The translations under genes were made by a program, and so were the position numbers. From IMG/VR virus record IMGVR_UViG_3300043410_001293, positions 1 through 20,220 of that record: DNA of 20,220 nucleotides; one strand, given 5' to 3'. The notes beneath the pieces are model-generated. The model saw only the letters and a program-made list of their open reading frames with translations, was not told where the DNA came from and ran no database searches. This document shows positions 2-18,936 of this stretch, piece after piece; positions within the stretch are counted from its first letter, which is position 1, and each line of letters opens with the position of its first letter. The stretch is from a virus.

Positions 2-688
2 ACGTCAAACATGAATATGGGTTTTGTACTTGACGGAGAAGTTATTGGCAACACGTTCCAAGAATTGATGCGACAAGCACGCCGAAAAGAAAACGCACAG
101 GCTGAGGATAGTGTGTTCAATGTGTTTGATATTATCCCGTTGAATGACTTCCGTAGAGGATATTGGAATGCTCAATTGAGTAAGCGTATTAGTATCTTAG
201 AAGATATTCGTCCTATCATTGACACAATGCCCAACGTTGAACTGTTGCCTCACATCATGGTTGACTTGGATACAGCCGCAGGTCGTGACCAACTCAATCG
301 CTATGCTAAAGATCAAGTTAATGCTGGCTTTGAAGGCATTATGATTAAGGATGTTGACGCACCTTACGAGTGTAAGCGTAATACATTCTGGATGAAGTGG
401 AAGCCTACTATTACTGTTGACTTGACTGTAGTAGGTCTTGAAGAAGGTACTGGTCGCAATCAAGGTCGTCTTGGTGCGTTAGTTTGTCAAGGAGTAGATG
501 ATGATAAAGAAATTTCTGTCAATGTTGGTTCAGGTTTCAGTGATGAAGATAGAGATAGTTACTGGAATAATTCTGATCTTATTGTTGGGCGCACCGCTGA
601 GATTCTTTGCGATGTAATCACGCAGAACCAAGACGGTACTTACAGTTTGCGTTTCCCCCGCTTTGTTAGATTTAGGGATGACAAATGA
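2..688 (+). CDS. ATP-dependent DNA ligase, C-terminal part (5' end outside window)
   Basis: This enzyme seals nicks in duplex DNA during phage replication and repair. The reading frame is open from base 2, so the gene starts upstream and the ATG at 11 is internal. Nucleotidyltransferase motif III is visible as LDGE near the left edge, IIIa as NVFDIIP, IV as EGIMIKD and V as MKWKP. An OB-fold segment (GRLGALV) follows, and the protein ends in a motif VI-like FPRFVRFRDDK. The motif I lysine (KxDG) must lie upstream and cannot be seen. The stop codon overlaps the next ATG (ATGA), so the downstream small genes are probably translated from the same transcript. The match is to viral ATP ligases rather than NAD-dependent LigA. 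Confidence 0.92.
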   Translation, partial: TSNMNMGFVLDGEVIGNTFQELMRQARRKENAQAEDSVFNVFDIIPLNDFRRGYWNAQLSKRISILEDIRPIIDTMPNVELLPHIMVDLDTAAGRDQLNRYAKDQVNAGFEGIMIKDVDAPYECKRNTFWMKWKPTITVDLTVVGLEEGTGRNQGRLGALVCQGVDDDKEISVNVGSGFSDEDRDSYWNNSDLIVGRTAEILCDVITQNQDGTYSLRFPRFVRFRDDK

Positions 689-945
689 ACAAACGAATTC
701 AAGCACTGGCTGAGCAATGTTATCATCGGTACAGTGAGCATCACATTGATTTGGAAAAGTTCGCCGAGCTGATTGTTCAGGAATGTATTGGATTGTGCGA
801 CCAGGCTGTAGAAGAAAACAAAAGAACATTTTATACTGTCAACGAAACACAAGAAGTAGGACCTGCATTGGTAGCAAAAGGATGTCAAGTGCAGGCCGAG
901 AAATTGTCCAAGCAGATTAAACAACATTTCGGAGTTGAAGAATGA
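685..945 (+). CDS. NERI/HFGVE-family small protein, copy 1
   Basis: This 86-aa protein of unknown function belongs to a family with seven members in the window. It starts MNKRIQALAEQ, has the central block FAELIVQEC and ends IKQHFGVEE. The stretches between these blocks are unlike those of the other copies. Its ATG overlaps the ligase stop as ATGA. Its last codons contain GGAG (931-934), placed 7 nt before the ATG of copy 2, so it appears to carry the ribosome binding site of its neighbour. I recall similar proteins from freshwater and marine phage metagenomes but know no function. It has no signal peptide or membrane segment. Confidence 0.85.
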   Translation: MNKRIQALAEQCYHRYSEHHIDLEKFAELIVQECIGLCDQAVEENKRTFYTVNETQEVGPALVAKGCQVQAEKLSKQIKQHFGVEE

Positions 946-1139
946 GCAAACGCATATTTGAAATCGTACAGGATATAAACGGTCGAGTTGGATTACACTG
1001 GGACGATGAAGATAAGCACGAACTTGCCGAGTTGATTGTGCGGGAATGTGCTGATAAATGTTTAGCAATGGCCTATGTAGCTCCAGGACCTCATCACTAT
1101 GCGGCTATGATTAAAGAACATTTTGGAGTTAAAGAATGA
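942..1139 (+). CDS. NERI/HFGVE-family small protein, copy 2
   Basis: At 65 aa this is the shortest member of the family. It starts MSKRIFEIVQ, has the central block LAELIVREC and ends IKEHFGVKE. The variable stretch before the central block is only about 18 residues and contains HWDDEDK; the one after it holds a short Pro/His-rich stretch (PGPHHY). The gene overlaps copy 1 and copy 3 at ATGA junctions, and its GGAG at 1125-1128 lies 7 nt before the copy 3 ATG. Function is unknown. Confidence 0.84.
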   Translation: MSKRIFEIVQDINGRVGLHWDDEDKHELAELIVRECADKCLAMAYVAPGPHHYAAMIKEHFGVKE

Positions 1140-1396
1140 ATGAACGAATTCGAGAACTTGTTAAACAAGCAGGTGGTGAGTTTTGGCAACGACTGGAAAA
1201 TGATACAGTCAATCCAGAAGCATACATTACCTTTGATCCGCCAGAGAGTTTGGAAAAGTTTGCAGAGTTGATTGTCAGGGAATGTGTTATTCGTGCTGAA
1301 AGAGAATGGATTCGCAATGGTTCAGACACAGAACACAATAAGGCAATAACTGGCGTTATCAAATCTATTAAAGAACATTTCGGAGTTGAAGAATGA
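1136..1396 (+). CDS. NERI/HFGVE-family small protein, copy 3
   Basis: This 86-aa protein starts MNERIRELVKQAGGEFW, has FAELIVREC near residue 43 and ends IKEHFGVEE. The N-terminal variable stretch is long and acidic and includes AYITFDPPESLE. The second variable stretch is rich in Arg and Trp. Its first 25 nt are nearly the same as those of copy 4 and of the copy at 18044, so the start block forms a DNA direct repeat. GGAG at 1382-1385 lies 7 nt before the next ATG. Function is unknown. Confidence 0.85.
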   Translation: MNERIRELVKQAGGEFWQRLENDTVNPEAYITFDPPESLEKFAELIVRECVIRAEREWIRNGSDTEHNKAITGVIKSIKEHFGVEE

Positions 1397-1629
1397 ACGA
1401 ACGAATTCGAGAACTTGCCGAGCAGGTCAATCCACGATTTACCAAATCCTATGTAGTTGGTCCTTGGTATGCTGAAGATATTGAAATGTTCGCCCAGTTG
1501 ATTGTGCGAGAATGTATCGATATATCAACAGATGTAGAAAATGAAGCACTACAGAACCAAGAATTCAAAGCAGGAAGTGCCGCAACCTTGATTAAGGTTT
1601 TAATCAAAAAACATTTCGGAGTTGAATGA
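1393..1629 (+). CDS. NERI/HFGVE-family small protein, copy 4
   Basis: This 78-aa protein starts MNERIRELAEQ, has FAQLIVREC in the centre and ends IKKHFGVE, one residue shorter than most copies. A 30-nt stretch covering the central block (1488-1517) is identical to that in copy 5 (1972-2001), which indicates recent duplication or gene conversion. Its tail provides GGAG at 1618-1621 for the unrelated gene that follows. Function is unknown. Confidence 0.85.
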   Translation: MNERIRELAEQVNPRFTKSYVVGPWYAEDIEMFAQLIVRECIDISTDVENEALQNQEFKAGSAATLIKVLIKKHFGVE

Positions 1630-1862
1630 TGAATGTAAAGTGGTATAATGATATGTCTGCTAAAATCGCATACGACCACATGCGTTACAAATTAGATCCT
1701 ATCATTGAAGAAATGTTCCCTAACTACGAATTGAGCCATGTTGGTGTTAATAGAAACGAAGTTACCGAAGAAGTCACAATCAAATTACACTTGAACCAGA
1801 TTGGAAGTGTAAGGGTAACCGAAACCTACACTGATAATAATGATTTTAGGAAATTGAAATGA
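1629..1862 (+). CDS. hypothetical phage protein, 77 aa
   Basis: I do not recognise this protein. It begins MNVKWYNDMSAKIAYDHM, and its second half looks like a beta-rich domain (EVTIKLHLNQIGSVRVTETY). Two ATG codons stand in tandem at 1626 and 1629. I chose 1629 because it lies 7 nt after the GGAG at 1618-1621, the spacing used at the neighbouring junctions. The gene sits between two NERI/HFGVE copies, so it is either an inserted cassette or an older resident. Its own tail carries AGGA at 1848-1851, 7 nt before the next start. Confidence 0.75.
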   Translation: MNVKWYNDMSAKIAYDHMRYKLDPIIEEMFPNYELSHVGVNRNEVTEEVTIKLHLNQIGSVRVTETYTDNNDFRKLK

Positions 1863-2113
1863 ACGAACGAATTAAACAACTTGCTATACAAGCAGGATTT
1901 TTTTATGAAGATTACAAAGATATCTGGTATTTGGAATATCATAATGAATCCTGTGAAGAAGAAATGGAAAAGTTCGCCCAGTTGATTGTGCGAGAATGTA
2001 TGGAAGTTGTTGAAAAACAACTTGGCGGGGGTAACGGCGACGGTGTTGAATGGGATCGAGCCATCAACTTTACCTACGATGATATGAAACAACATTTCGG
2101 AGTTGAAGAATGA
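1859..2113 (+). CDS. NERI/HFGVE-family small protein, copy 5
   Basis: This 84-aa protein starts MNERIKQLAIQAGFFYEDY, has FAQLIVREC in the centre and ends MKQHFGVEE. The first variable stretch is rich in Tyr, Trp and acidic residues, and the second contains a Gly-rich loop (LGGGNGDG). It shares a 30-nt identical core with copy 4. GGAG at 2099-2102 lies 7 nt before the ATG of the next gene, which is from another family. Function is unknown. Confidence 0.85.
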   Translation: MNERIKQLAIQAGFFYEDYKDIWYLEYHNESCEEEMEKFAQLIVRECMEVVEKQLGGGNGDGVEWDRAINFTYDDMKQHFGVEE

Positions 2114-2289
2114 GTGGACGTGGATTTATTAGTGAAGAACCTATGCAGGTTTGTGAAATGTGTGGCACGATTGATGAGTGTCGCCCATATGGTCCTAACG
2201 GGGAACAAATTTGTTTTGATTGTGGTATGAAGGATGAAGAAACCACACAAAAGAAAATGGCAGCTTATATTTTCGGAGAAGAACAATGA
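2110..2289 (+). CDS. small zinc-finger-like protein, 59 aa
   Basis: This short gene begins MSGRGFISEEPMQ and contains two CxxC pairs, CEMC (residues 15-18) and CFDC (35-38), with a further Cys in between (DEC). It is therefore a likely single zinc ribbon. It ends YIFGEEQ, where TTC GGA GAA again puts a GGAG (2275-2278) 7 nt before the next ATG, although the protein is unrelated to the NERI family. Both ends overlap neighbours at ATGA. The partner or nucleic-acid target is unknown. Confidence 0.72.
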   Translation: MSGRGFISEEPMQVCEMCGTIDECRPYGPNGEQICFDCGMKDEETTQKKMAAYIFGEEQ

Positions 2290-2588
2290 ACAGATTCAGA
2301 CCACAAGAAATTCCTAAAGCATATATTTTCAAGCAACGATTAGCTTTCGGTCGTGCTGACAATTACAATTGGCAATCACGTGTCAAGTGGATTCCTGCAG
2401 GATACAAAATTAATCGTAAAGGTATCCTACGTAGGTGGCAAGAGATTCATCACTATGCAAGCCATGCTCCGTGGTGCTTGTCTCACTATAAGACAGCAAA
2501 CAAAATGTTTAATCAAAAGTTTCTTGGCTCAAAGGGCAAAGCAAGCACAAGATATCTAAATACATATTCAGCACATAGTTGGTTATAA
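2286..2588 (+). CDS. basic hypothetical protein, 100 aa
   Basis: I do not recognise this protein. It is strongly basic and rich in aromatic residues (FRPQEIPKAYIFKQRLAF at the start, INRKGILRRWQEIHHYA in the middle), which would fit nucleic-acid binding; that is inference. The start is supported by the GGAG at 2275-2278. The stop overlaps the next ATG in a TAATG junction. A CTAAATAC motif at 2556-2563 lies inside its 3' end and may act as a promoter for what follows. Confidence 0.72.
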   Translation: MNRFRPQEIPKAYIFKQRLAFGRADNYNWQSRVKWIPAGYKINRKGILRRWQEIHHYASHAPWCLSHYKTANKMFNQKFLGSKGKASTRYLNTYSAHSWL

Positions 2589-7113: not shown

Positions 7114-8313
7114 ATGTCCGAAGATACAAAACAAATCAACCATTGTAGTTTTTGTGGTAATCACAAGGACGCTGTCAAAAAATTAGTCGTGAGTAACGAT
7201 ACCGCAATATGTAGCGATTGCGTAGAATTATGTCAGGAACTGATTACAGACGGTGCTCCGGAAACTGAACAAACTACAGATCCTGAATACGATCCCATTT
7301 CTATCAAAGAGTATCTTGACCAACATATCATCGGTCAGAATGATGCCAAAATAGTTCTTAGTGTAGCTATTGCTAATCACTATAAACGAATCAATAATCC
7401 ACCTAAAGACTTAGAAATACAAAAAGGCAACGTCCTTGTTGTAGGTCCAACAGGTAGTGGTAAAACCCTACTTGCCAAGACTGCGGCAAAATATCTCAAA
7501 GTGCCCTTTGTGGTGGCTGACGCTACAAGTTTGACCGAAGCTGGGTATGTAGGTGATGATGTTGAATCTATGATTACTATGTTGTTACAGGCCGCCGGTG
7601 GTGATAAACAACAAGCCGAGAGAGGTATTGTCTTCATAGATGAGATTGACAAGGTTGCCCGAAAGGGAGAAAGCACTAGTATCACCCGTGATGTTTCAGG
7701 TGAGGGTGTACAACAAGCATTACTCAAACTAGTTGAGGGTACAACTTGCCGAGTTCCTGCTAGCGGTGGTAGAAAACACCCCGGTAACGATATGTTAGAA
7801 ATCAATACCAAAAATATCTTATTCATTGCTGGTGGCGCATTTGTTGGATTGAAAGACGTTATTGCAAATAGAATGAATGGAACTAGTATTGGCTTCAATG
7901 CTGACGTTCGTGACAACAAAGTAGAAGGTGATCTTACTAAAGTTACACCAGATGACGTAGTGAAATTCGGTATGATACCTGAATTTGTAGGTCGTTTTAC
8001 TACCACAGTAAGCATAAGCGAATTATCCAAAGAACAATTGGTTCACATTTTGACAGATGTTAAGAACAACTACATAAGTCAATACCAATATCTATTGAAA
8101 CTTGATGAGATTGAATTGACGTTTACCCAGGATGCGTTAGAAGAAATAGCAGAATGTGCTATCAAACTAAAAACAGGGGCTAGGGGATTACACACAGAAA
8201 TTGAACGAGTTTTAATGTGTCACATGTATAACTCAAATTTATACCGTAAAAATGAGATTAAAACGCTAAATATAGACAAGGGGCAGGTAATTAATCCAAC
8301 ACCATTGTTATGA
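7114..8313 (+). CDS. clpX: ClpX, ATP-dependent unfoldase subunit of ClpXP
   Basis: ClpX is a hexameric AAA+ unfoldase that recognises tagged proteins and threads them into ClpP. All key parts are present in 399 aa: the C4 zinc-binding domain (C11, C14, C33, C36), Walker A GPTGSGKT (111-118), pore loop GYVG (144-147), Walker B VFIDEIDK (173-180), the RKH loop (220-222), the IGF tripeptide used to dock on ClpP (259-261), an arginine in PEFVGRF (R294) and sensor-2 in GARGL (R358). Bacterial ClpX is about 420 aa, so this copy is slightly short but not truncated in any motif. No clear SD precedes the ATG, and the 39-nt leader is very AT-rich. The stop overlaps the bS21 gene at ATGA. Confidence 0.97.
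   Translation: MSEDTKQINHCSFCGNHKDAVKKLVVSNDTAICSDCVELCQELITDGAPETEQTTDPEYDPISIKEYLDQHIIGQNDAKIVLSVAIANHYKRINNPPKDLEIQKGNVLVVGPTGSGKTLLAKTAAKYLKVPFVVADATSLTEAGYVGDDVESMITMLLQAAGGDKQQAERGIVFIDEIDKVARKGESTSITRDVSGEGVQQALLKLVEGTTCRVPASGGRKHPGNDMLEINTKNILFIAGGAFVGLKDVIANRMNGTSIGFNADVRDNKVEGDLTKVTPDDVVKFGMIPEFVGRFTTTVSISELSKEQLVHILTDVKNNYISQYQYLLKLDEIELTFTQDALEEIAECAIKLKTGARGLHTEIERVLMCHMYNSNLYRKNEIKTLNIDKGQVINPTPLL
8266..8272 (+). promoter_or_regulatory. possible late-type promoter motif upstream of rpsU
   Basis: CTAAATA occurs inside the 3' end of clpX, about 37 nt before the rpsU ATG. It could allow rpsU to be expressed without clpX, but a chance match is possible. Confidence 0.25.
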
Positions 8314-8531
8314 GCGTAAAAGGAAGACGAGTACAAGTTACTGACGGAAATGTTGAAAAAGCATTACGAAAACTCAAAAAGAAGGTTACAGACCAAGGTC
8401 TACTTCAAGAGGTCCGTGACCGTCAAGAATTTGTCAAACCTACGGTAAAAAGAAAGATTGCCAAAGGGCAAGCTAGACGCCGTTGGTTGAAACACTTACG
8501 TGACCAACAATTACCCCCAAAACTATATTAA
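8310..8531 (+). CDS. rpsU: ribosomal protein bS21 homologue
   Basis: This 73-aa, very basic protein matches bS21. It has a short strand (GRRVQVTDGN), a helix EKALRKLKKKV, then GLLQEVRDRQEFVKPTVKRKIAK, and a basic C-terminal helix ending in KLY, as bacterial S21 ends in RLY. bS21 binds the 30S platform near the anti-SD end of 16S rRNA and affects initiation. Phage copies are known in pelagiphages and large freshwater phages, where they are thought to replace the host protein and favour phage mRNA. Its start overlaps the clpX stop (ATGA), so the two are translationally coupled. This is the clearest link between the proteolysis genes and translation control. Confidence 0.93.
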   Translation: MSVKGRRVQVTDGNVEKALRKLKKKVTDQGLLQEVRDRQEFVKPTVKRKIAKGQARRRWLKHLRDQQLPPKLY

Positions 8532-8632
8532 CCATAATAGTTGAATATTTTACGCAACAAACTAAAATAGATATATACATGTAGATGCTTTTTAGGTCTA
8601 CTAAAAATCTTGCTTTTTTAAAGGAGAATACA
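8532..8632 (+). promoter_or_regulatory. AT-rich leader of dnaK, no confident promoter
   Basis: This 101-base gap contains a weak hairpin over 8521-8542 that includes the rpsU stop and is followed by a T-rich stretch. It also holds a short repeat pair GTAGA/TCTAC (8581-8601) and a strong SD AAGGAG (8621-8626), 6 nt before the dnaK ATG. I see no sigma32-type heat-shock promoter and no good sigma70 site. Confidence 0.45.
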
Positions 8633-10528
8633 ATGAGCAAAGTCATCGGTATCGATTTGGGTACCACAAATTCATGCGTCGCCATCATCGAAAATGGCAA
8701 TCCCAAAGTAATTGAAAACAGCGAAGGTGCAAGAACAACACCTAGTATCGTGGCATATGGTGCTGACGAAGTATTGGTCGGTGCAAGTGCTAAACGCCAA
8801 GCAATTACAAATCCAAAGAACACAATTTATGCGGCTAAGCGACTAATCGGTCGTAAGTTCAAAGAAGAAGCCGTACAAAAAGATATTAACCTAATGCCAT
8901 ACCAAATCATTGAAAATGATAACGGTGATGCTTGGGTTCAATCAGGAGACAAGAAACTAGCACCCCCACAAATTAGTGCTGAGGTTCTACGTAAGATGAA
9001 AAAGACCGCAGAAGATTATCTCGGTCACGAAGTCACACAAGCAGTTATTACTGTTCCTGCTTACTTCAATGATAGTCAACGACAAGCAACCAAAGACGCA
9101 GGACGCATTGCGGGTCTAGAAGTATTGCGTATTATTAACGAACCTACAGCGGCTGCTCTAGCATACGGTGTAGACAAACAGGACAAGAAGGACCGAAAGG
9201 TTGCTGTCTATGACTTGGGTGGTGGTACATTTGACGTTTCAATCATTGAAATTGCTAACGTTGATGGTGACAAGCAAATTGAAGTACTATCTACAAATGG
9301 TGACACATTCCTAGGTGGTGAAGACTTTGACCAACGCATCATGGATTTCTTGGTTGATGAGTTCAAAAAGGATCAAGGAGTTGACCTAACCAAAGATGTT
9401 TTAGCACTACAGCGTTTGAAAGAGGCTAGTGAGAAGGCTAAGATTGAGTTGTCAAGTTCTAGTCAGACTGATGTTAACTTGCCATACATCACAGCAGATG
9501 CTAGTGGTCCTAAGCATATGAACATTAAGTTGTCACGTGCTAAACTTGAAAGTCTTGTTGATGAGTTGATTCAGCGTAGTATCGCTCCATGCAAAACAGC
9601 CATGCAAGATGCTGGTGTAAGTGCAAGCGATATCGATGAAATTATTCTTGTAGGTGGTATGACACGTATGCCCAAAGTACAAGAAGAAGTAGAGAAATTG
9701 TTCGGCAAGGCGCCACGTAAGGATGTGAATCCTGACGAAGCTGTCGCAGTAGGTGCTGCCGTTCAAGGTAGTGTACTTGCAGGTGATCGTAAAGACGTAC
9801 TATTGTTAGACGTAACTCCGTTGAGTTTAGGTATCGAAACATTAGGTGGTGTGATGACTAAAGTTATTACTAAGAACACAACCATCCCAACCAAACAAAG
9901 CCAGACATTCAGTACAGCAGACGATAATCAATCAGCAGTAACTATCAAGGTATATCAGGGTGAGCGTGAAATCGCTAAGTACAATAAAGCACTCGGTGAT
10001 TTCAACTTAGAAGGAATTCCTCCTGCACCACGCAATGTACCTCAAATCGAAGTTACTTTTGACATTGACGCAAACGGTATCTTACACGTTAGCGCAAAAG
10101 ATAAAGGAACTGGCAAAGAAAACAAAATCACTATCAAAGCTAATTCTGGATTGACTGAGACAGAAATTCAGCAGATGGTCAAAGATGCTGAAGCAAATGC
10201 TGAGGCAGATAAGAAACAACGTGAACTAATTGATGCACGTAATGGTGCAGAAGGAACGTTGCGTGGCTTCCGTAATGACTTTAATACATATAAAGACCAA
10301 CTTACTGAAGAAGAAAAGACCAAGATTGAAACTGCGCTCAACAATGTTGACACAGCAATTGCCGGTGAAGATGTTGAAGCTATTAACACAGCCGTAAAAG
10401 AAATGTACGAAGCTATTGGCCCTGTCACTGCTAAAAAGTACGAAGCTGAAGAGGCTGCAAAGAAACAATCAGAGTCTAAGGACGAGACTGTGGTTGACGC
10501 AGAAGTTAAAGAAGCACAACCTTCTTAA
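8633..10528 (+). CDS. dnaK: DnaK (Hsp70) chaperone
   Basis: DnaK binds unfolded segments and refolds them in cycles of ATP hydrolysis with DnaJ and GrpE. The 631-aa protein is full length compared with about 638 for bacterial DnaK. Visible motifs are [12 protein letters not shown] at the N-terminus, [22 protein letters not shown] and [10 protein letters not shown] in the ATPase domain, the linker [18 protein letters not shown], and a helical lid ending in [12 protein letters not shown]. The start at 8633 is set by AAGGAG and by homology; an in-frame ATG at 8585 would add 16 residues not seen in DnaK. No dnaJ or grpE is in the window, so it would need host partners or phage genes elsewhere. 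It is much closer to bacterial DnaK than the phage ClpX is to bacterial ClpX, which suggests later acquisition. Confidence 0.98.
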
Positions 10529-10537
10529 CTTAAACTA

Positions 10538-10563
10538 GAGGGCGCCGCATGGGGCGGGCCCTC
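10538..10563 (+). other. GC-rich hairpin between dnaK and hsp20
   Basis: GAGGGC (10538-10543) pairs with GCCCTC (10558-10563), and CCGC (10545-10548) pairs with GCGG (10554-10557) after one bulged G, giving ten base pairs around a 5-nt loop. It is the most GC-rich stretch in an AT-rich neighbourhood. No T-run follows, so it may be an RNA-processing or stability element, or a pause site, rather than a classical terminator. Confidence 0.75.
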
Positions 10564-10597
10564 AATGTCATAACTTGCTTATTAAAGGAGAATTAAC

Positions 10598-11047
10598 ATG
10601 ACAAGAGAATTAACACTACGTTCACTAGATATTCCAGCTATTCATAGATTTGGAATAGGGTTTGATACCATGCTTGAAGAATTAATGAGAGTATCAGGTA
10701 CGCAAGCACAAACAAACTACCCACCACACAACGTTATTCAAACAGGTGACGAGACAATTACTATTGAAATTGCAGTCGCTGGGTTTAATGAAGGTGATAT
10801 CGAAGTTAATGTTGAAGATAACGTTCTGACTATTACTGGTACTAAAGAACCATATGCAGAACCTGTCAACTACAATTACCTACATCGTGGTCTAAGCCGC
10901 AGAAGTTTTACCCAAACTTTCCGTCTAGCACCCTATGTAGAAGTAGTTGAGGCTACAATTAAGAACGGTATCTTGACTATTCTGCTAGAACGCAAACTTC
11001 CGGAAGAAAAGAAGCCCAAGAAGATTGCAATCAATTACAATAAATAA
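10598..11047 (+). CDS. hsp20: Hsp20-family small heat-shock protein
   Basis: Small heat-shock proteins hold unfolded proteins in a refoldable state for DnaK. This 149-aa protein has an N-terminal arm (residues 1-38), an alpha-crystallin domain beginning near YPPHNVIQTGDETITIEIAV, the AGFNEGDIEV and NVLTITG strands, a loop, the RSFTQTFRL strand, and ILTILLERKLPEEKKPKKIAI at the end, with a C-terminal I-x-I-like tail. IbpA-like Hsp20 genes are common in T4-like cyanophages. AAGGAG at 10585-10590 lies 7 nt before the ATG. It sits directly after dnaK, its expected functional partner. Confidence 0.95.
   Translation: MTRELTLRSLDIPAIHRFGIGFDTMLEELMRVSGTQAQTNYPPHNVIQTGDETITIEIAVAGFNEGDIEVNVEDNVLTITGTKEPYAEPVNYNYLHRGLSRRSFTQTFRLAPYVEVVEATIKNGILTILLERKLPEEKKPKKIAINYNK
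11039..11046 (+). promoter_or_regulatory. possible late-type promoter motif upstream of clpS
   Basis: AATAAATA overlaps the hsp20 stop codon and precedes the hairpin and clpS. A transcript starting about 10 nt downstream would begin just before the hairpin at 11070-11093. The motif is short and may be chance. Confidence 0.28.
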
Positions 11048-11069
11048 TATAATAGCATATTGTTAAACA

Positions 11070-11093
11070 GAGTGTGTAGGTGACTACACACTC
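11070..11093 (+). other. perfect hairpin with GTGA tetraloop before clpS
   Basis: GAGTGTGTAG (11070-11079), loop GTGA and CTACACACTC (11084-11093) form a perfect 10-bp stem capped by a GNRA-type tetraloop. It ends 14 nt before the clpS ATG, just upstream of the weak GAG ribosome-binding site. It could separate hsp20 from clpS as a processing or stability element, or control clpS translation. Confidence 0.85.
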
Positions 11094-11107
11094 ATTTGAG
11101 AAAAATT

Positions 11108-11416
11108 ATGTCACAAACTGAATCTAAAACCAGAATTAAAACTAACCTTAAGGTAACTGAACCTCCGTTGTTCAAGGTCATTTACATGAATGACAATCAT
11201 ACGACTATGGATTTTGTTGTGAACAGTTTAATTGAACATTTTAATTATACTGAGGATACCGCAACCAATATCACTGAAGGTATCCACGTTGATGGAAGCG
11301 CAGTAGTTGCAGTTTTACCTTATGAAATTGCTGAACAAAAGGGAATTGAAGTTACACTAGAAGCTAGAAATCAAGGGTTCCCACTTCAAGTTAAAATCGA
11401 AGCTGAAGAAGTTTAA
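11108..11416 (+). CDS. clpS: ClpS, N-degron adaptor protein
   Basis: ClpS delivers proteins with bulky hydrophobic N-terminal residues to ClpAP. The 102-aa protein has PPLFKVIYMNDNHTTMDFVV, which keeps the Asn-Asp pair and the gatekeeper Met of the substrate pocket. It then has GIHVDGSAVVAVLPYEIAEQKG, which keeps the pocket His, and ends with ARNQGFPLQVKIE. The second Asp of the usual NDD is Asn here, and the Tyr and Pro of YTPM are His and Thr, so substrate preference may be altered. I chose ATG 11108 over a TTG at 11096 because GAG lies 7 nt upstream. There is no clpA in the window, so the partner is either the host ClpA or, unusually, another unfoldase. Confidence 0.93.
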   Translation: MSQTESKTRIKTNLKVTEPPLFKVIYMNDNHTTMDFVVNSLIEHFNYTEDTATNITEGIHVDGSAVVAVLPYEIAEQKGIEVTLEARNQGFPLQVKIEAEEV

Positions 11417-12111
11417 ATCACTACCTCTATGCGTTTAGCATAGTAAGGTTCTCTATCAAATTTTGTATTGTTAATGTAATTAACATTGTTGATGGTTGTG
11501 TCAACTAATTTATCATAAGTACCATATACCCACTTCACAACCTTATGTTCTGTATCTTTGTATAGTACATAACCTGGGTATATATCTTCATCATTAATAT
11601 CACATTCACCGTAGTACAATTCCCTAAAAGGAACACAGTTGCTCATAATGATGATTTTCTTTACATCCACATGTAATTGAAGTTTTTCTAATGTTTTTTC
11701 TAGGTAACTGATATCTTCATATCTAAGACACTTAGCATGGAAGTCATCAATAATCGTATTGTTTTGATAGTTTTTATACCATCCATTAATTGCGACTAAA
11801 GCCACTCCATCTATAACTACTACATTATTGTGTAAGTAAATTACGTTACGCAACGAACTACAAATTTGTTGTAGTTCAGTAACACGTGTGTCCCGTGTTT
11901 GAATGTCAGAATTCTCAAGCGCACCATCTATAAAAAACACGCCTTGATATAAATTGCTTAGGTGTTTCAACACTCTACTTATTGTCCCCAAATCAGTAGA
12001 GATGTTGCCGGGAATCAAGCAGAATAAACTTGTAGGTTTACCCGTCCAATCAAAGTCATCGGACGGGTTTAGGTTTATATCGCTTATTACATCAAAGCCA
12101 AATAACACCAC
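11413..12111 (-). CDS. calcineurin-like phosphoesterase-fold protein with lost metal ligands
   Basis: The 232-aa order of strands matches metallophosphoesterases: FDVISDINLN at residues 6-15, LIPGNIS (32-38), FFIDGALEN (59-67), NVIYLHNNVVVIDGVALVAING (from 89), IIIMSNCVPF (153-162) and WVYGTYDKLVD (194-204), ending YINNTKFDREPYYAKRIEV. At each place where the family has a metal ligand the residue is changed. DxH is D11-I-N13, GD is G35-N36, GNHE is G63-A-L-E66, TH is S157-N158, and GHTH is G197-T-Y-D200. Only the first Asp remains. It is probably a non-catalytic binding protein. The start codon is GTG at 12111 or 12108. Its stop shares bases with that of the convergent clpS gene. Confidence 0.72.
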   Translation of the reverse strand: MVLFGFDVISDINLNPSDDFDWTGKPTSLFCLIPGNISTDLGTISRVLKHLSNLYQGVFFIDGALENSDIQTRDTRVTELQQICSSLRNVIYLHNNVVVIDGVALVAINGWYKNYQNNTIIDDFHAKCLRYEDISYLEKTLEKLQLHVDVKKIIIMSNCVPFRELYYGECDINDEDIYPGYVLYKDTEHKVVKWVYGTYDKLVDTTINNVNYINNTKFDREPYYAKRIEVVI

Positions 12112-12120
12112 TTGGGTCTT

Positions 12121-12378
12121 TTATTCTGCTTTAGTAGCCTTAGGTGCTCTTGGTTTTTTAGCTTTAGGTTCCTTAGCTTTAGTTGCTTTTGGAGCCTTTG
12201 GCTTAGCTGGTTTTTTAGCCTTTTTAGGGGCCTCAGCTACAACTGCTTCAACTTTAGGAGCTTCCGTAACGACTGGGGTTGCAGGTGTTTCGACCTTGTA
12301 AGGTGCTGCGGCCTCGGCTGCAACTGTCTTTTCCTCTGGTTTGTAAGTTCCGAATAGTTTCTTCAAAAAGTTAATCAT
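12121..12378 (-). CDS. Lys/Ala/Pro-rich basic protein with amphipathic N-terminus, 85 aa
   Basis: The protein starts MINFLKKLFGTYKPEEK, a short amphipathic helix, and continues with a low-complexity region of Ala, Val, Glu and Pro. It ends in about 35 residues made almost only of Lys, Ala and Pro (repeats of the type KKAKKPAKPKAPKATKAK), like the tails of histone H1-like bacterial proteins. It may bind nucleic acid or a membrane. The SD AAGGAG (12388-12383 on this strand) lies 4 nt before the ATG. It is followed on the same strand by the phosphoesterase-fold gene, 9 nt away. Confidence 0.75.
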   Translation of the reverse strand: MINFLKKLFGTYKPEEKTVAAEAAAPYKVETPATPVVTEAPKVEAVVAEAPKKAKKPAKPKAPKATKAKEPKAKKPRAPKATKAE

Positions 12379-12396
12379 AATTTTCTCCTTATAATA

Positions 12397-12403
12397 TATT
12401 TAG
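12397..12403 (-). promoter_or_regulatory. late-type promoter motif for the inverted gene pair
   Basis: CTAAATA on the minus strand lies 18 nt before the ATG of the Lys/Ala-rich gene. A start site about 7 nt downstream of the motif would fall just before AAGGAG. It sits in a divergent intergenic region with a similar motif facing the other way. Confidence 0.4.
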
Positions 12404-12418
12404 ATATATTTGGAGTTT

Positions 12419-12454
12419 CTGTATTTTTTCCTGTCAGATTTTGACTAAATACAG
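12419..12454. repeat. 8-bp inverted repeat in the divergent promoter region
   Basis: CTGTATTT (12419-12426) and AAATACAG (12447-12454) are inverted copies 20 nt apart, so AAATACAG is present on both strands. The right arm overlaps the ACTAAATA motif. This could be a dyad operator or simply two promoter elements facing opposite ways. Confidence 0.6.
12444..12451 (+). promoter_or_regulatory. late-type promoter motif for the SprT-like gene
   Basis: ACTAAATA lies 41 nt before the SprT-like ATG at 12493 and would give a leader of about 35 nt that contains the AGAGG ribosome-binding site at 12483-12487. This spacing is what a T4-like late promoter would need. Confidence 0.42.
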
Positions 12455-12492
12455 ATATGTTTGCTCTGTCCAACTATTCACTAGAGGATATA

Positions 12493-12951
12493 ATGCATAT
12501 TCCGTTACCCACACTAACGGAACAGAAAAGACTTTGCTATCGTCCCAGTAAAGCGGATGTGCTACACGTGTATACACAATTAAATGAGTATATTTTTCGC
12601 AATGAATTAGCAGTTCCTAAAATAGAGGTTCGCTCACACCGTAAAAAATACTGGGGAATGTGCGTAGGGGAAACCGAAGAACCCAGAAGAGGTAGTTGCT
12701 GTGAGATAAAACTAATGGATAAATGGTTTTGCCCACAATGGACAGTGACTATAATAGCACATGAAATGGCCCATCAATATCAGTGGGATATCTTAGGACC
12801 GAAGAGAAATAAAAAGGGCTATGAACATCTTATGAGTCATGGCCCTAGTTTTTTTGTGTTTCGAGATAGATTGGAAAGATTTAGTATTCCGTTAAAAACA
12901 GCACATAGTATGCGTAAATGGTTCAAATATCAAGATTTGTTCAAATGCTAA
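12493..12951 (+). CDS. SprT-like zinc metalloprotease-fold protein
   Basis: SprT-like proteins are zinc metallopeptidases; the eukaryotic relative Spartan cleaves DNA-protein crosslinks. This 152-aa protein shows the HExxH motif at H90-E-M-A-H94, with the third ligand likely H116 in MSHGPSF. The N-terminal half is a helical region followed by the strand VPKIEVRS and WGMC. An in-frame ATG at 12457 would add 12 residues, but AGAGG lies 5 nt before 12493 and not before 12457, so I prefer 12493. It sits between the ClpS and ClpP genes and adds a second kind of protease to the region. Function on DNA crosslinks is inference from the family. Confidence 0.82.
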   Translation: MHIPLPTLTEQKRLCYRPSKADVLHVYTQLNEYIFRNELAVPKIEVRSHRKKYWGMCVGETEEPRRGSCCEIKLMDKWFCPQWTVTIIAHEMAHQYQWDILGPKRNKKGYEHLMSHGPSFFVFRDRLERFSIPLKTAHSMRKWFKYQDLFKC

Positions 12952-12956
12952 CTTGA

Positions 12957-12964
12957 GATAAATA
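12957..12964 (+). promoter_or_regulatory. late-type promoter motif before the 479-aa gene
   Basis: GATAAATA lies 7 nt before the ATG at 12972, in the 20-nt gap between two genes. Transcription from it would give a nearly leaderless mRNA. Confidence 0.35.
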
Positions 12965-12971
12965 CTATATT

Positions 12972-14411
12972 ATGAGAGCAACCGAGTTTTTATCAGAGAG
13001 TCCATTGACGCCGGGTAGTTTATTTGATCCAAGACATTTATCTTGGAGACCACAGAAGTTCCTTCAAAAAATTGTAGACGGAACACCCTTTGTTGACAAA
13101 GCTGGAAACAAATTTTATCCAGACCCAAGTGATGCAAACCGCATAAGCGCCATCATCACCACAACACTTAAACAACTAGAGAAACAACCAAACGCACCTT
13201 TACCTAGTATTAGTGTAAAGATGAAAGAAGTTCCACCTGGATTCCCTAATCCCGTTCCAGCAAGCAAGTTTGAAAAAGCAGATTTACAAACATCTAAAGG
13301 ACAATTTACTAGTGACGTAAATGTACAGCCTATAGGAATAGGTATTGCAACCGAACCCATAAATAAGCCTGGCACTAAACCAAAAGATAAAGTTGTATTG
13401 ACAACTGACGAAGAAGTTAAACGAGCATTAGATGCACATAAAGAAATTCGTGCAGGTGATTTGTATAACGTAATCATAAACAATAAAGTTTTGGATCAAG
13501 CAGGTGAACTAGGTCAAGCAATTAAAGAAGTTGCTAGACAAATGGAAAATAAACAAATACCTGTCATCAAACAATATGATGAAAATACACAAAAGAAAAT
13601 AGCTATTGATGCTGGAGAGTATCTAGGTATATTAGCATTAGTAAATGATATAGCAGATTTCCCAAAGAAAGAGGCGTTTTTAAAATTCTTACGTTCATCT
13701 AATTTTGATAATTTAGCAGTAATTTTCCCAGGCGAACAAAACTCATCATTAAGTGACAGCTACGGCGTACAAAACGCAGAAACTGGCCACACTATTATGA
13801 TTAGTAGCAAGGGAGGAAAAGGCAGCACAGCGTCAGGCGCGGCGCCATCATTGGCTGGTTTAGCCCCTTCTATTGCAAAACGTAAAAACAAGATTAGAAG
13901 GGGAAATGGATTAGATTTTATAAATCATATCATTCAAGTGTCTCCTACATCAGCGCAAGGTTTTGCAGGTATAAATTGGATCGCAGAAAATTATCCAGAA
14001 GCACTTCCGGACAAATATAGAAAGTATGTTCCTTTCTATAGTGAAGATATCAAACTAGTATTAAACAATATCAGAACCAAAGGTGCAGAACCAATTCCAA
14101 ATAAGTTTTATCCACTAATTAGTTCTCCTAGTATCCGAAATAGCAAGGGCACAGATGGTGGAAAGTTAGCATACGTAGTAACTAAGGATTTGGTTAGTGC
14201 TATGAATTCTGGTATTATTCGTAACTTTAGAAACACAATCTTAGAGTTATTAGATGAAAACTTTGTCCAAATCTTCACACGTATCGTAGGTGGCAGATTA
14301 ATAACCAAAGTGTTATGGCCAGGCAAAGTAGACGGTAATGTAGAATTACATACCAAGATGTATCCGGGTAATCCTAACTTTGCTGGACTCAGCTTTAAGG
14401 TAACCGATTAA
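12972..14411 (+). CDS. protein of unknown function, 479 aa
   Basis: I do not recognise this protein. It begins MRATEFLSESPLTPGSLFDP. Residues 1-110 are Pro-rich and probably flexible, and residues 150-240 are helical. A segment with AGEYLGILAL (214-223), SDSYGVQN (261-268) and TIMISSKGGKGS (274-285) has the order of a PD-(D/E)xK nuclease (helix Glu, then Asp, then xxK), but the usual acidic residue before the Lys is Ser here, so I give this low weight. The last third contains several Trp/Tyr-rich strands. No SD is visible, and a late-type motif precedes the ATG. It ends 49 nt before clpP. Confidence 0.78.
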   Translation: MRATEFLSESPLTPGSLFDPRHLSWRPQKFLQKIVDGTPFVDKAGNKFYPDPSDANRISAIITTTLKQLEKQPNAPLPSISVKMKEVPPGFPNPVPASKFEKADLQTSKGQFTSDVNVQPIGIGIATEPINKPGTKPKDKVVLTTDEEVKRALDAHKEIRAGDLYNVIINNKVLDQAGELGQAIKEVARQMENKQIPVIKQYDENTQKKIAIDAGEYLGILALVNDIADFPKKEAFLKFLRSSNFDNLAVIFPGEQNSSLSDSYGVQNAETGHTIMISSKGGKGSTASGAAPSLAGLAPSIAKRKNKIRRGNGLDFINHIIQVSPTSAQGFAGINWIAENYPEALPDKYRKYVPFYSEDIKLVLNNIRTKGAEPIPNKFYPLISSPSIRNSKGTDGGKLAYVVTKDLVSAMNSGIIRNFRNTILELLDENFVQIFTRIVGGRLITKVLWPGKVDGNVELHTKMYPGNPNFAGLSFKVTD

Positions 14412-14412
14412 C

Positions 14413-14440
14413 TTGATTTTTCTTTAAAACTCTATACAAT
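14413..14440 (+). promoter_or_regulatory. sigma70-type promoter of clpP
   Basis: TTGATT (14413-14418) and TACAAT (14435-14440) are separated by 16 nt. It lies in the 49-nt gap before clpP and gives clpP a start independent of the upstream gene. It differs from the five-copy TTGACAATAAATC family. Confidence 0.55.
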
Positions 14441-14451
14441 AGAGCTTTTAA
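14424..14451. repeat. inverted repeat across the clpP -10 region
   Basis: TTAAAA plus CTCTAT (14424-14435) is mirrored by ATAGAG (14439-14444) and TTTTAA (14446-14451), with one bulged C and a 3-nt centre. It covers the -10 element and ends at the SD AAGGA (14450-14454). It could be an operator, or an RNA hairpin that hides the ribosome binding site. Confidence 0.7.
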
Positions 14452-14460
14452 GGAAACAAT

Positions 14461-15051
14461 ATGAGTTTAGTGCCGATCGTAATTGAACAAACAAGCAAAG
14501 GTGAGCGTAGCTACGATATTTACAGTCGGCTATTACGTGACCGTGTAATTTTGCTAGAAGGTGAAGTTCATGACCAAATGGCTAACTTGATTGTAGCCCA
14601 ATTGTTGTTCTTAGAATCAGAGGGTGAAAAAGATATTTCAATGTATATCAATAGCCCGGGTGGCAGTGTAACTGCTGGTATGGCAATCTATGATGCGATG
14701 CAATTTATCAAACCCGATGTGCAAACAATCGTAATGGGTCAAGCATGCAGTATGGGAAGTCTATTAGCACAAGCAGGTGCTAAAGGCAAACGTATGATTC
14801 TACCTAATGCACGACACATGATCCATCAACCTTCAGGTGGCGCACGTGGTCAGGCTACTGACATGGAAATTCAAGTAAAAGAGATTTTGCAAATGAAACG
14901 CACGTTGACCGAAATCTATGTCAATCACAATAGCAAGGGAAAAACCTTTGTAGAGTTGGCTAAGGATATGGAACGTGATTATTTCATGTCCGCGCAAGAA
15001 GCCGTAGACTATGGACTTGCTGACCAAATTATTACCAAACGTGATATTTGA
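14461..15051 (+). CDS. clpP: ClpP, serine protease subunit of ClpXP
   Basis: ClpP forms the tetradecameric proteolytic chamber fed by ClpX or ClpA. The 196-aa protein has the nucleophile in GQACSMG (S97), MIHQP (H122) and MERDYF (D173), plus the INSPGG segment and the [11 protein letters not shown] helix. It starts [19 protein letters not shown], which lines up with the mature N-terminus of bacterial ClpP (ALVPMVIEQT in E. coli), so the usual 14-residue propeptide is absent. AAGGA lies 6 nt before the ATG. The residue before the nucleophile is Cys rather than the more usual Ala. Its stop codon lies inside the -35 box of the next promoter. Confidence 0.97.
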
Positions 15052-16231: not shown

Positions 16232-16266
16232 CCTCGCAGAGCCGCATAAACAGTGGCTTTCCGAGG
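16232..16266 (+). other. strong hairpin upstream of the promoter cassette
   Basis: CCTCGCAGAGCC (16232-16243) pairs with GGCTTTCCGAGG (16255-16266) with one C-C mismatch and one G-T pair, and two further pairs can form inside. It lies 8 nt after the lipoprotein 3 stop and 2 nt before the next -35 box. No T-run follows, so a role as a rho-independent terminator is uncertain. Confidence 0.75.
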
Positions 16267-16267
16267 C

Positions 16268-16296
16268 TTGACAATAAATCAGTTTGGGCATATAAT
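16268..16296 (+). promoter_or_regulatory. sigma70-type promoter, family member 3
   Basis: TTGACA (16268-16273), 17-nt spacer and TATAAT (16291-16296) give a consensus promoter. The transcribed leader to the AAGGAG at 16315-16320 is nearly identical to members 4 and 5. A 12-bp palindrome AATACATGTATT (16294-16305) overlaps the -10 and start region. Confidence 0.92.
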
Positions 16297-16326
16297 ACAT
16301 GTATTGATTGATTAAAGGAGCTTTCT

Positions 16327-16612: not shown

Positions 16613-16623
16613 ATTTCCCAAAT

Positions 16624-16652
16624 TTGACAATAAATCGGTTTGGGTATATAAT
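16624..16652 (+). promoter_or_regulatory. sigma70-type promoter, family member 4
   Basis: TTGACA (16624-16629), 17-nt spacer and TATAAT (16647-16652). The leader to AAGGAG (16674-16679) resembles member 3 but with a few inserted bases. Confidence 0.92.
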
Positions 16653-16686
16653 ACTTGTATTGTCAGTTGATTAAAGGAGTTTGCAA

Positions 16687-17162: not shown

Positions 17163-17176
17163 TACTTTAGTACTAC
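17154..17176 (+). repeat. short repeat with TAGTACTA palindrome, copy 2
   Basis: This is the second copy of the repeat at 16591-16612, with one extra T. It again begins in the last two codons (QK and stop) of the upstream gene, and TAGTACTA is at 17168-17175. Confidence 0.8.
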
Positions 17177-17186
17177 TTTTTAAAGG

Positions 17187-17215
17187 TTGACAATAAATCG
17201 TTTTGGGTATATAAT
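17187..17215 (+). promoter_or_regulatory. sigma70-type promoter, family member 5
   Basis: TTGACA (17187-17192), 17-nt spacer and TATAAT (17210-17215). The leader to AAGGAG (17234-17239) is nearly identical to member 3. It heads the gene run from 17248 onward. Confidence 0.92.
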
Positions 17216-17247
17216 ACTTGTATTGATTGATTAAAGGAGCATTTCAA

Positions 17248-17691: not shown

Positions 17692-18047
17692 TGAAATACT
17701 TCCAAGAGGTTACTGAGTGGGCAGACAAAACGCCCAATCACATTTATTATCTATCCGATGATAAGACCTCTATGGTTGGTTACATCAAGGTAGGTAGCAA
17801 AGACCTGTACAAGTTTAAGAGCCCTATTCGGATTGATGTGCGTGGTCGCAAGTTTAAGGTTCTTGACATGAAGGCAGAACCGGACAATGTGTACTTTAAG
17901 AAAGAGGCACCTAAGAAGGATGTTATCATTGTACAGGGTTCTAATGGTAAGGAATATCAAGTAGAAAAGATTGGCGACAAGTATAGTTGCAGTTGCCCTG
18001 GCTTTATGTTCCGTCATAAGTGTAAACATGTTGAAGGATTGAAATGA
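17691..18047 (+). CDS. SWIM-type zinc-finger protein, 118 aa
   Basis: The C-terminus has C100-S-C102, eight residues, then C111-K-H113, which matches the SWIM zinc motif CxCxnCxH known for binding DNA or proteins. The strand NGKEYQVEKIGDKYSCSC precedes it, as is usual. The N-terminal half contains a possible beta-domain (VGYIKVGSKDLYKFKSPIRI). The gene overlaps its neighbours at both ends, and AAGGA at 18034-18038 near its 3' end lies 5 nt before the next ATG. Confidence 0.82.
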   Translation: MKYFQEVTEWADKTPNHIYYLSDDKTSMVGYIKVGSKDLYKFKSPIRIDVRGRKFKVLDMKAEPDNVYFKKEAPKKDVIIVQGSNGKEYQVEKIGDKYSCSCPGFMFRHKCKHVEGLK

Positions 18048-18295
18048 ACGAACGAATTCAAGAACTTTCTGTAGAGGCATGGCGTTTTACCTCCAATCAG
18101 GTGGCTTATCTCAACCGCATCCATAATAGATCATATTCGCAGGATGAGGTTACAGATATTTTTGAACAAAAATTCGCCGAGTTGATTGTCAAGGAATGCT
18201 TGGACCAATGCTATAACCGTGGCATGAACGATGAATTGTATGCTGGCCAGTTGAAAGCGGCGGCATATATTGAAGAACATTTCGGAGTTGAATGA
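18044..18295 (+). CDS. NERI/HFGVE-family small protein, copy 6
   Basis: This 83-aa protein starts MNERIQELSVEAWRF, has FAELIVKEC in the centre and ends IEEHFGVE. The copies at 685-2113 are 16 kb away, so this is a second cluster of the family. The first variable stretch has VAYLNRIHNRSYSQDEV and the second has YNRGMNDELYAGQ. GGAG at 18284-18287 lies 7 nt before ATG 18295. Function is unknown. Confidence 0.85.
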   Translation: MNERIQELSVEAWRFTSNQVAYLNRIHNRSYSQDEVTDIFEQKFAELIVKECLDQCYNRGMNDELYAGQLKAAAYIEEHFGVE

Positions 18296-18519
18296 TGATT
18301 ACAGGTGTTCGTTGGTTTACAAATCGTGATGGGTGTATGGGTATTGTACAGATTGTACAAGACCATCAAAAGGATATATATCGTCAAACCGGAGAGGCTG
18401 ACTTCAAATATTACATTGGAGTTGGTAGTGGTCTAGATGAAAAGGCTGATATGAATCACATTGCTGACTACGGATGTCCTTTTGACAAGGCACCGGGTGA
18501 TGTATTGTTTGGAGTCTGA
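18295..18519 (+). CDS. hypothetical phage protein, 74 aa
   Basis: The protein begins MITGVRWFTNRDGCMGIVQIV and contains YYIGVGSGLDEKAD and IADYGCPFDKAPGD, a small alpha/beta fold. I recall related phage hypotheticals but know no function. Tandem ATG codons stand at 18292 and 18295, and I chose 18295 for its 7-nt distance from GGAG. It is not a member of the NERI family, yet it ends LFGV, coded by TTT GGA GTC, which puts GGAG (18511-18514) 6 nt before the next ATG. Confidence 0.78.
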   Translation: MITGVRWFTNRDGCMGIVQIVQDHQKDIYRQTGEADFKYYIGVGSGLDEKADMNHIADYGCPFDKAPGDVLFGV

Positions 18520-18520
18520 C

Positions 18521-18754
18521 ATGAACGAACGAATTTTAAAACTTATGGCCGAGGCTGGATTTGATGTAGAGAAACTACGCACCTATCCCGGTGGCTGGCC
18601 CAGAGAAGACCTATTGGTTCTTGAAGACTTTGCCAAGTTGATTGTTCGGGAATGTATGAGTAAGACTGCTGGATATCTGCTTGAGGATGAATTCGGTGGG
18701 TCAGATGTAAAAGAAGCATCAGAAGAACTGGCAAAACATTTCGGAGTTGAATGA
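18521..18754 (+). CDS. NERI/HFGVE-family small protein, copy 7
   Basis: This 77-aa protein starts MNERILKLMAEAGFDVEKL, has FAKLIVREC in the centre and ends LAKHFGVE. I placed the start at 18521, where the family motif begins and GGAG is 6 nt upstream; an in-frame start at 18461 would add 20 unrelated residues. The variable stretches are YPGGWPREDLLVLED and a Gly/Ser/Asp-rich one. Its tail supplies GGAG (18743-18746) for the next gene. Confidence 0.85.
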   Translation: MNERILKLMAEAGFDVEKLRTYPGGWPREDLLVLEDFAKLIVRECMSKTAGYLLEDEFGGSDVKEASEELAKHFGVE

Positions 18755-18936
18755 TGAAATATGTAATGACCGAGCAACACTACGACATGAAGCCCGGTCT
18801 GGAGGTTGAATTCGTTAGTGTGAGCGAGAGTGACACTAAGAGCACAGGCAAAGAGCATGTGGTTGTATCCGTTGAGGGTTCTGACAGCGTGTTTGTTGTT
18901 CCTACTTACAAGTTGAAAGAATATGATTCCAAGTGA
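18754..18936 (+). CDS. hypothetical protein, 60 aa
   Basis: I do not recognise this protein. It starts MKYVMTEQHYDMKPGLEVEF and is a likely all-beta fold with alternating strands (VVVSVEGSDSVFVVPTYKL). ATG codons at 18751 and 18754 are in tandem, and I chose 18754 because it lies 7 nt after GGAG. It overlaps the next gene by 14 nt. Confidence 0.7.
   Translation: MKYVMTEQHYDMKPGLEVEFVSVSESDTKSTGKEHVVVSVEGSDSVFVVPTYKLKEYDSK

Follow-up and report, generated by a model that had tools for sequence, protein, structure and literature searches.

Ribosome-binding sites that lie within the coding end of an upstream gene constrain the choice of codons and of stop codons there, a general statistical effect (Palleja et al. 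2009, PMC2784483, which cites Eyre-Walker 1996 on Shine-Dalgarno [SD] sequences in upstream coding ends and codon use). Translational coupling is associated with gene pairs whose stop and start codons overlap as ATGA or TGATG, and integron gene cassettes are promoterless units that enter or leave exactly at the borders between genes. Phage morons are extra genes between conserved phage genes and classically carry their own promoter and terminator. Phages swap small genes in gapless operons, and how translation of the downstream gene survives this is not obvious; the family of small genes described here would provide a concrete answer, in that the inserted gene mends the boundary that it breaks. 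Specifically, these genes, whose products end in HFGVE(E), are on sequence grounds probably cassettes, each unit extending from its own start codon to the next start codon with an SD site as its tail.

The window, i.e., the whole 20,220-base virus record that was analysed, contains seven HFGVE paralogues, of which five lie at 685-2113 and two at 18044-18754, interspersed with small genes that are unrelated to them. The seven proteins form a single paralogous family with the pattern MNERI...FAELIVREC...HFGVE(E). The first array, on the plus strand like the second, comprises member 1 right behind a ligase gene (685..945, ending HFGVEE), member 2 (942..1139, HFGVKE), member 3 (1136..1396, HFGVEE), member 4 (1393..1629, HFGVE), a non-family gene with a predicted site in the tail of member 4 (1629..1862), member 5 (1859..2113, HFGVEE), a gene for a 59-aa zinc-ribbon-like protein (phrog_18256; 2110..2289, ending FGEEQ), and a further non-family gene (2286..2588). 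In the second array, member 6 (18044..18295, HFGVE) is followed by a gene for a non-family 74-aa protein ending LFGV (18295..18519), member 7 (18521..18754, HFGVE), and a non-family gene with a predicted site in the tail of member 7 (18754..18936). In 24 contigs, the window included, the plus-strand bay flanked by the ligase gene on one side and by the MASYTDYF gene (at 2588) on the other (approximately 689..2587 in the window) ranges from 0 to 4 kb and holds 0 to 5 family members; in one contig (L398) it is empty, and the two flanking genes adjoin. The first array thus represents a variable bay partly filled by HFGVE cassettes. Elsewhere in the window, positions 7114-15051 encode homologues of ClpX, DnaK (Hsp70), Hsp20, ClpS, and ClpP, a full chaperone and protease set that is unusual for a phage, and a protein encoded at 18923-19312 matches the C-terminal domain of ribosomal protein L7/L12 (PF00542, E value 8e-6, above the curated cut-off). 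The window also carries a 68-nt repeat in three copies (16257-16324, 16613-16680, and 17176-17243), in which TTGACA-N17-TATAAT is followed by AAAGGAG; these are likely repeated units of promoter plus ribosome site.

Scans of viral contigs yielded 852 distinct complete family members at 413 loci. The longest of these contigs measures 374 kb, and eight large ones carry between 2 and 17 copies each. The carriers are a group of large phages from aquatic habitats; a scan of bacterial genomes gave seven loci, mostly in metagenome bins. Profile searches with the HFGVE proteins against Pfam and PHROGs returned no convincing match, a tblastn search of named phages with one window member gave none at E≤0.01, and a PDB fold search with an AlphaFold2 model of member 3 (mean pLDDT of 87) gave none at E≤0.001; these protein-family, named-phage, and fold searches thus found no function for the HFGVE proteins.

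The initial annotation had claimed that the HFGVE ending is written with GGA-containing codons that include GGAG, placed 7 nt before the next ATG. All seven family proteins of the window do use GGA, and all coordinates check out. GGAG lies exactly 7 nt before ATG at 931 (start 942; predicted ribosome site GGAGTTGAAGA-ATG, 931..944, within member 1), 1125 (start 1136; GGAGTTAAAGA-ATG, 1125..1138), 1382 (start 1393; GGAGTTGAAGA-ATG, 1382..1395), 2099 (start 2110; GGAGTTGAAGA-ATG, 2099..2112), and 2275 (start 2286; GGAGAAGAACA-ATG, 2275..2288, in the tail of the zinc-ribbon-like gene), and also at 1618 (start 1629; GGAGTTGAATG-ATG, 1618..1631), 18284 (start 18295; GGAGTTGAATG-ATG, 18284..18297), and 18743 (start 18754; GGAGTTGAATG-ATG, 18743..18756), the value for these last three presuming the second ATG, as an alternative ATG with 4-nt spacing lies 3 nt upstream. 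At 18511 the distance to the ATG at 18521 is 6 nt (predicted site GGAGTCTGAC-ATG, 18511..18523). All these predicted sites are on the plus strand, and at all nine the GGAG core, within the 4 to 11 nt before the start that are expected of an SD site, is inside the upstream open reading frame (ORF). The window as a whole has 11 GGAG-N7-ATG occurrences, all on the plus strand, the remaining three being at 2928, 10587, and 16676; shuffled sequences averaged 2.0, and none of 100 shuffles reached 11. An Rfam search of the window gave no match.

The same arrangement had also been noted in other protein families. The ends FGEEQ (GGA GAA) and LFGV (GGA GTC) do carry GGAG, as stated; they follow from a general geometry, a short overlap with GGAG at 6 to 7 nt, that unrelated genes show as well. 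Among unrelated genes with an ATGA overlap, Gly occupies position -4 in 13% of cases, compared with about 3% at positions -5 to -8, and is encoded by GGA in 52 of 75. Two cultured phages provide examples: gp028 of Rheinheimera phage Barba1A (end HLGGEE, DNA AGGAGGTGAAGAATGA) and the Edwardsiella phage PEi20 gene preceding pseT (end LLGIEE) both share with the family the ATGA overlap and a Gly four residues before the stop codon, which gives a Gly-x-Glu-Glu end. Unlike the family, both proteins lack the HFGVE family motifs, and the shared geometry has apparently led to these ends by convergence. These figures, and the frequency with which prokaryotic ribosome sites lie inside the coding end of the preceding gene (PMC2784483), fit an alternative in which nothing is cassette-like: genes would be packed tightly in the ordinary way, the SD sequence would merely fall in the upstream gene, the peptide would come first, and the family would have been copied by descent.

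In a codon-neutral pattern search, the tail Gly was GGA in 306 of 308 HFGVEE* ends, against a background of 22.5% for Gly codons in long ORFs and 26.8% for internal Gly codons of family genes. GGA is thus conserved beyond amino acid need, as the initial annotation had anticipated, and synonymous constraint acts on the codons forming the SD site; with one member per locus the count was 310/321, and among members with a nearby start, defined as a start 4 to 10 nt after the GGAG position, it was 634/657. Following GGA, the Val codon that forms the most stable anti-SD duplex is GTT (-8.7 versus -6.3 to -7.1 kcal/mol for the others), as scored against the canonical tail, from which that of the host 16S rRNA may differ. 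Spacing was 7 nt in 610 of the 657 members, irrespective of how long the tail is, which stop codon it has, and whether the next gene starts with ATG or GTG. Other family motifs, FAELIVREC and MNERI, are codon-conserved as well (GCC 81%, GAG 84%, CGA 86%), as tight packing with copying by descent would have it. The GGA bias is therefore partly a matter of shared descent or gene conversion, and codon conservation was dropped as sole proof. Since it is insufficient by itself, the case for the cassette reading rests on the limits of the conserved block, copies without a following start, out-of-frame copies, and pairs of filled and empty boundaries.

The limits were determined from 394 members followed by a non-family gene. 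Most positions of the block GGAGTTGAAGAATG are 87 to 100% conserved, the lowest values being 68% and 81%; the base just before it, the third base of the Phe codon, is conserved in 60%, and past ATGA conservation drops to background. Even with an unrelated next gene, the conserved block reaches precisely from GGAG to the next start codon, an extent that speaks against ordinary packing. The genes at family tails include 356 non-family ones in 259 unrelated clusters. GGAG at 7 nt was found in 57% of junctions with a family gene upstream and a non-family gene downstream, in 13% of the reverse arrangement, and in 5% where neither gene is of the family, so that the site goes with the family gene in front of it rather than with the gene behind it.

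Copies without a following start should lose the motif if it is kept for the next gene, and a reading of no loss was reached at first (GGA in 36 of 38 copies without a downstream gene); it was abandoned, as a short ORF or a GTG start proved to lie at 7 nt in most of these copies. With nearby starts defined as above, GGAG was kept in 598/657 members that have one and in 27/55 that do not (Fisher's exact test, p=1e-13), and GGA in 634/657 and 43/55, respectively (p=3e-6). Divergence elsewhere in the gene is similar, with 1.57 changed codons in no-start copies versus 1.35 in copies with a start. The loss of GGAG expected by the initial annotation is real but partial, GGA in no-start copies still being far over background, and even partial loss speaks against mere packing. 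Together with the codon excess, it supports the proposal that the peptide ending is kept partly as SD-site DNA, as far as can be judged from sequence comparison.

The DNA is also retained where the peptide is not. GGAG at 7 nt from a start was in frame 0 in 565 members, in frame 1 in 16 (ends FRS*, FWS*, PRS*, and similar), in frame 2 in 15, and behind the stop codon in 3, i.e., 34 members keep the DNA with the peptide changed or absent. In one member (L146), HFGV is present with GGT for Gly, and a new GGAG occurs further along, 7 nt from the start. A counterexample is a non-family 170-aa protein (L011, 6128-6641) ending HFGVEE with GGT despite a start 7 nt on. Members with a divergent tail (FPEI*; CCGGAGATTTAAAATG in L416 and L425) occur at similar boundaries in L384, L416, L425, L377, and L380; they place GGAG in another frame, except that L384 has GGAA instead. 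Retention out of frame and past the stop is at odds with simple packing, and equally with selection on the peptide end itself, e.g., as a Gly-Val helix C-cap, of which the codon bias would be a by-product. Such selection would suit the near invariance of HFGV in A2 and the AlphaFold2 model, in which the last helix is predicted to end at residue 82, directly before the Gly at residue 83. Peptide constraint cannot, however, fix GGA at 306 of 308 ends, and we regard this explanation as highly improbable.

The same tail is found on unrelated proteins in L231, L292, L290, and L218. This would be expected if the block GGAGTTGAAGAATGAACGAACGAATT were chiefly a recombination site that shuffles genes, its likeness to a ribosome site being secondary, and so would the near identity of junction DNA in tandem arrays and a 13-aa ORF, MNEQIKQHFGVEE (L067, 4621-4687), which is apparently a cassette cut to start plus tail by an internal deletion. 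Against a primarily recombinational role stand the abrupt end of conservation right after ATGA when the next gene is unrelated, the 5' limit at the G of GGAG, and the 7-nt spacing held despite variation in tail length and stop codon; we judge such a role very unlikely.

Related phages with and without a copy were compared for 35 filled members, of which ten boundaries were resolvable; breakpoints were assigned with ATG and GTG starts only, as allowing TTG misplaced several events. At each of them, the 20 nt preceding the cassette's ATG matched what the empty relative has ahead of the next gene (0.75 to 1.0), whereas in the filled phage the next gene's own upstream sequence, which there is the cassette tail, did so poorly (0.10 to 0.55). 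The unit present or absent is therefore start to start, from ATG to next ATG, at 10/10 resolvable boundaries, with none opposite; either state of a pair may be the ancestral one. One pair reads GAGGTTCAAAC / ATGAACGAACG...CATTTCGGAGTTGAATG / ATGAAGATTATC in the filled phage (L399) and CCGGAGGTTCAAAC / ATGAAAATTATC in the empty one (L348). Among the remaining boundaries, several have the same site on both sides, so that insertion and recombination between repeats are indistinguishable there, and in the rest start assignment failed. As a control, 64 non-family indel sites of the same lineage were classified, a noisy set that includes spurious ORFs: 14 were start to start, 26 kept their own upstream sequence, and 24 were unclear. 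Start-to-start geometry is accordingly found outside the family as well. For the next gene, anti-SD pairing was predicted to be better in the filled phage at 7 of ten tabulated boundaries, about the same in both at one (L317/L165), and clearly stronger in the empty relative at two (L399/L348 and L416/L420). That the site travels with the upstream gene in these pairs weakens the packing explanation, which we consider unlikely, and supports the earlier suggestion that each gene is a self-contained module.

Direct support for the cassette reading thus comes from the constraint on the DNA and its exact limits, the partial loss in no-start copies, the other frames, the unrelated next genes, and the start-to-start pairs. 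Mechanistically, a cassette gained at a boundary would place its ATG behind the next gene's former upstream sequence and take over any ribosome site there. Its 3' end, the SD site GGAGTTGA, encoded by the last codons of the cassette protein 7 nt before the next start, would then supply a fresh ribosome site to the displaced gene. Insertion, deletion, duplication, or swapping would consequently spare the next gene's ribosome site in a tight operon. Ribosomes presumably use the tail site, which selection on translation would maintain, and the cassettes may have been moved by recombination between the near-identical junctions. More tentatively, the family may represent a relay class, in which each unit would come under the ribosome site already present at its landing boundary and provide the following gene with another, encoded by its last codons. 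If so, operons would be open to insertion, cassettes may spread as near-neutral passengers, and the tail would also have been acquired by unrelated genes. That the end of a protein can be conserved in part through a ribosome site is a caution when conserved C termini are read as protein function, and stackable genes for synthetic operons could be designed after this natural arrangement.

In the openly accessible literature, the general effect was found and no family with a fixed SD tail moving start to start; ribosome sites embedded upstream are already known, and gene families organised as relay cassettes seem to have gone undescribed. As in the effect of Palleja et al. (2009), the SD site of the family lies in the upstream coding sequence at a short overlap, and unlike that effect, which concerns many genes, a single family with a fixed tail site supplies hundreds of unrelated genes. 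HFGVE junctions share the overlap of stop and start with translationally coupled genes, and downstream initiation likely depends on upstream translation at these overlaps; coupling, however, is a property of a gene pair, whereas the HFGVE cassette as the upstream half stays and its downstream partner differs between phages. The family resembles morons in adding genes between conserved phage genes and differs in that each cassette comes with a ribosome site for the gene behind it. With integron cassettes it shares promoterless units whose gain or loss is precise to the gene boundary. An attC-like site after the gene was not found, conservation ending at the next start codon, and the constant part of an HFGVE cassette is an in-frame ribosome site rather than a recombination site behind the gene.
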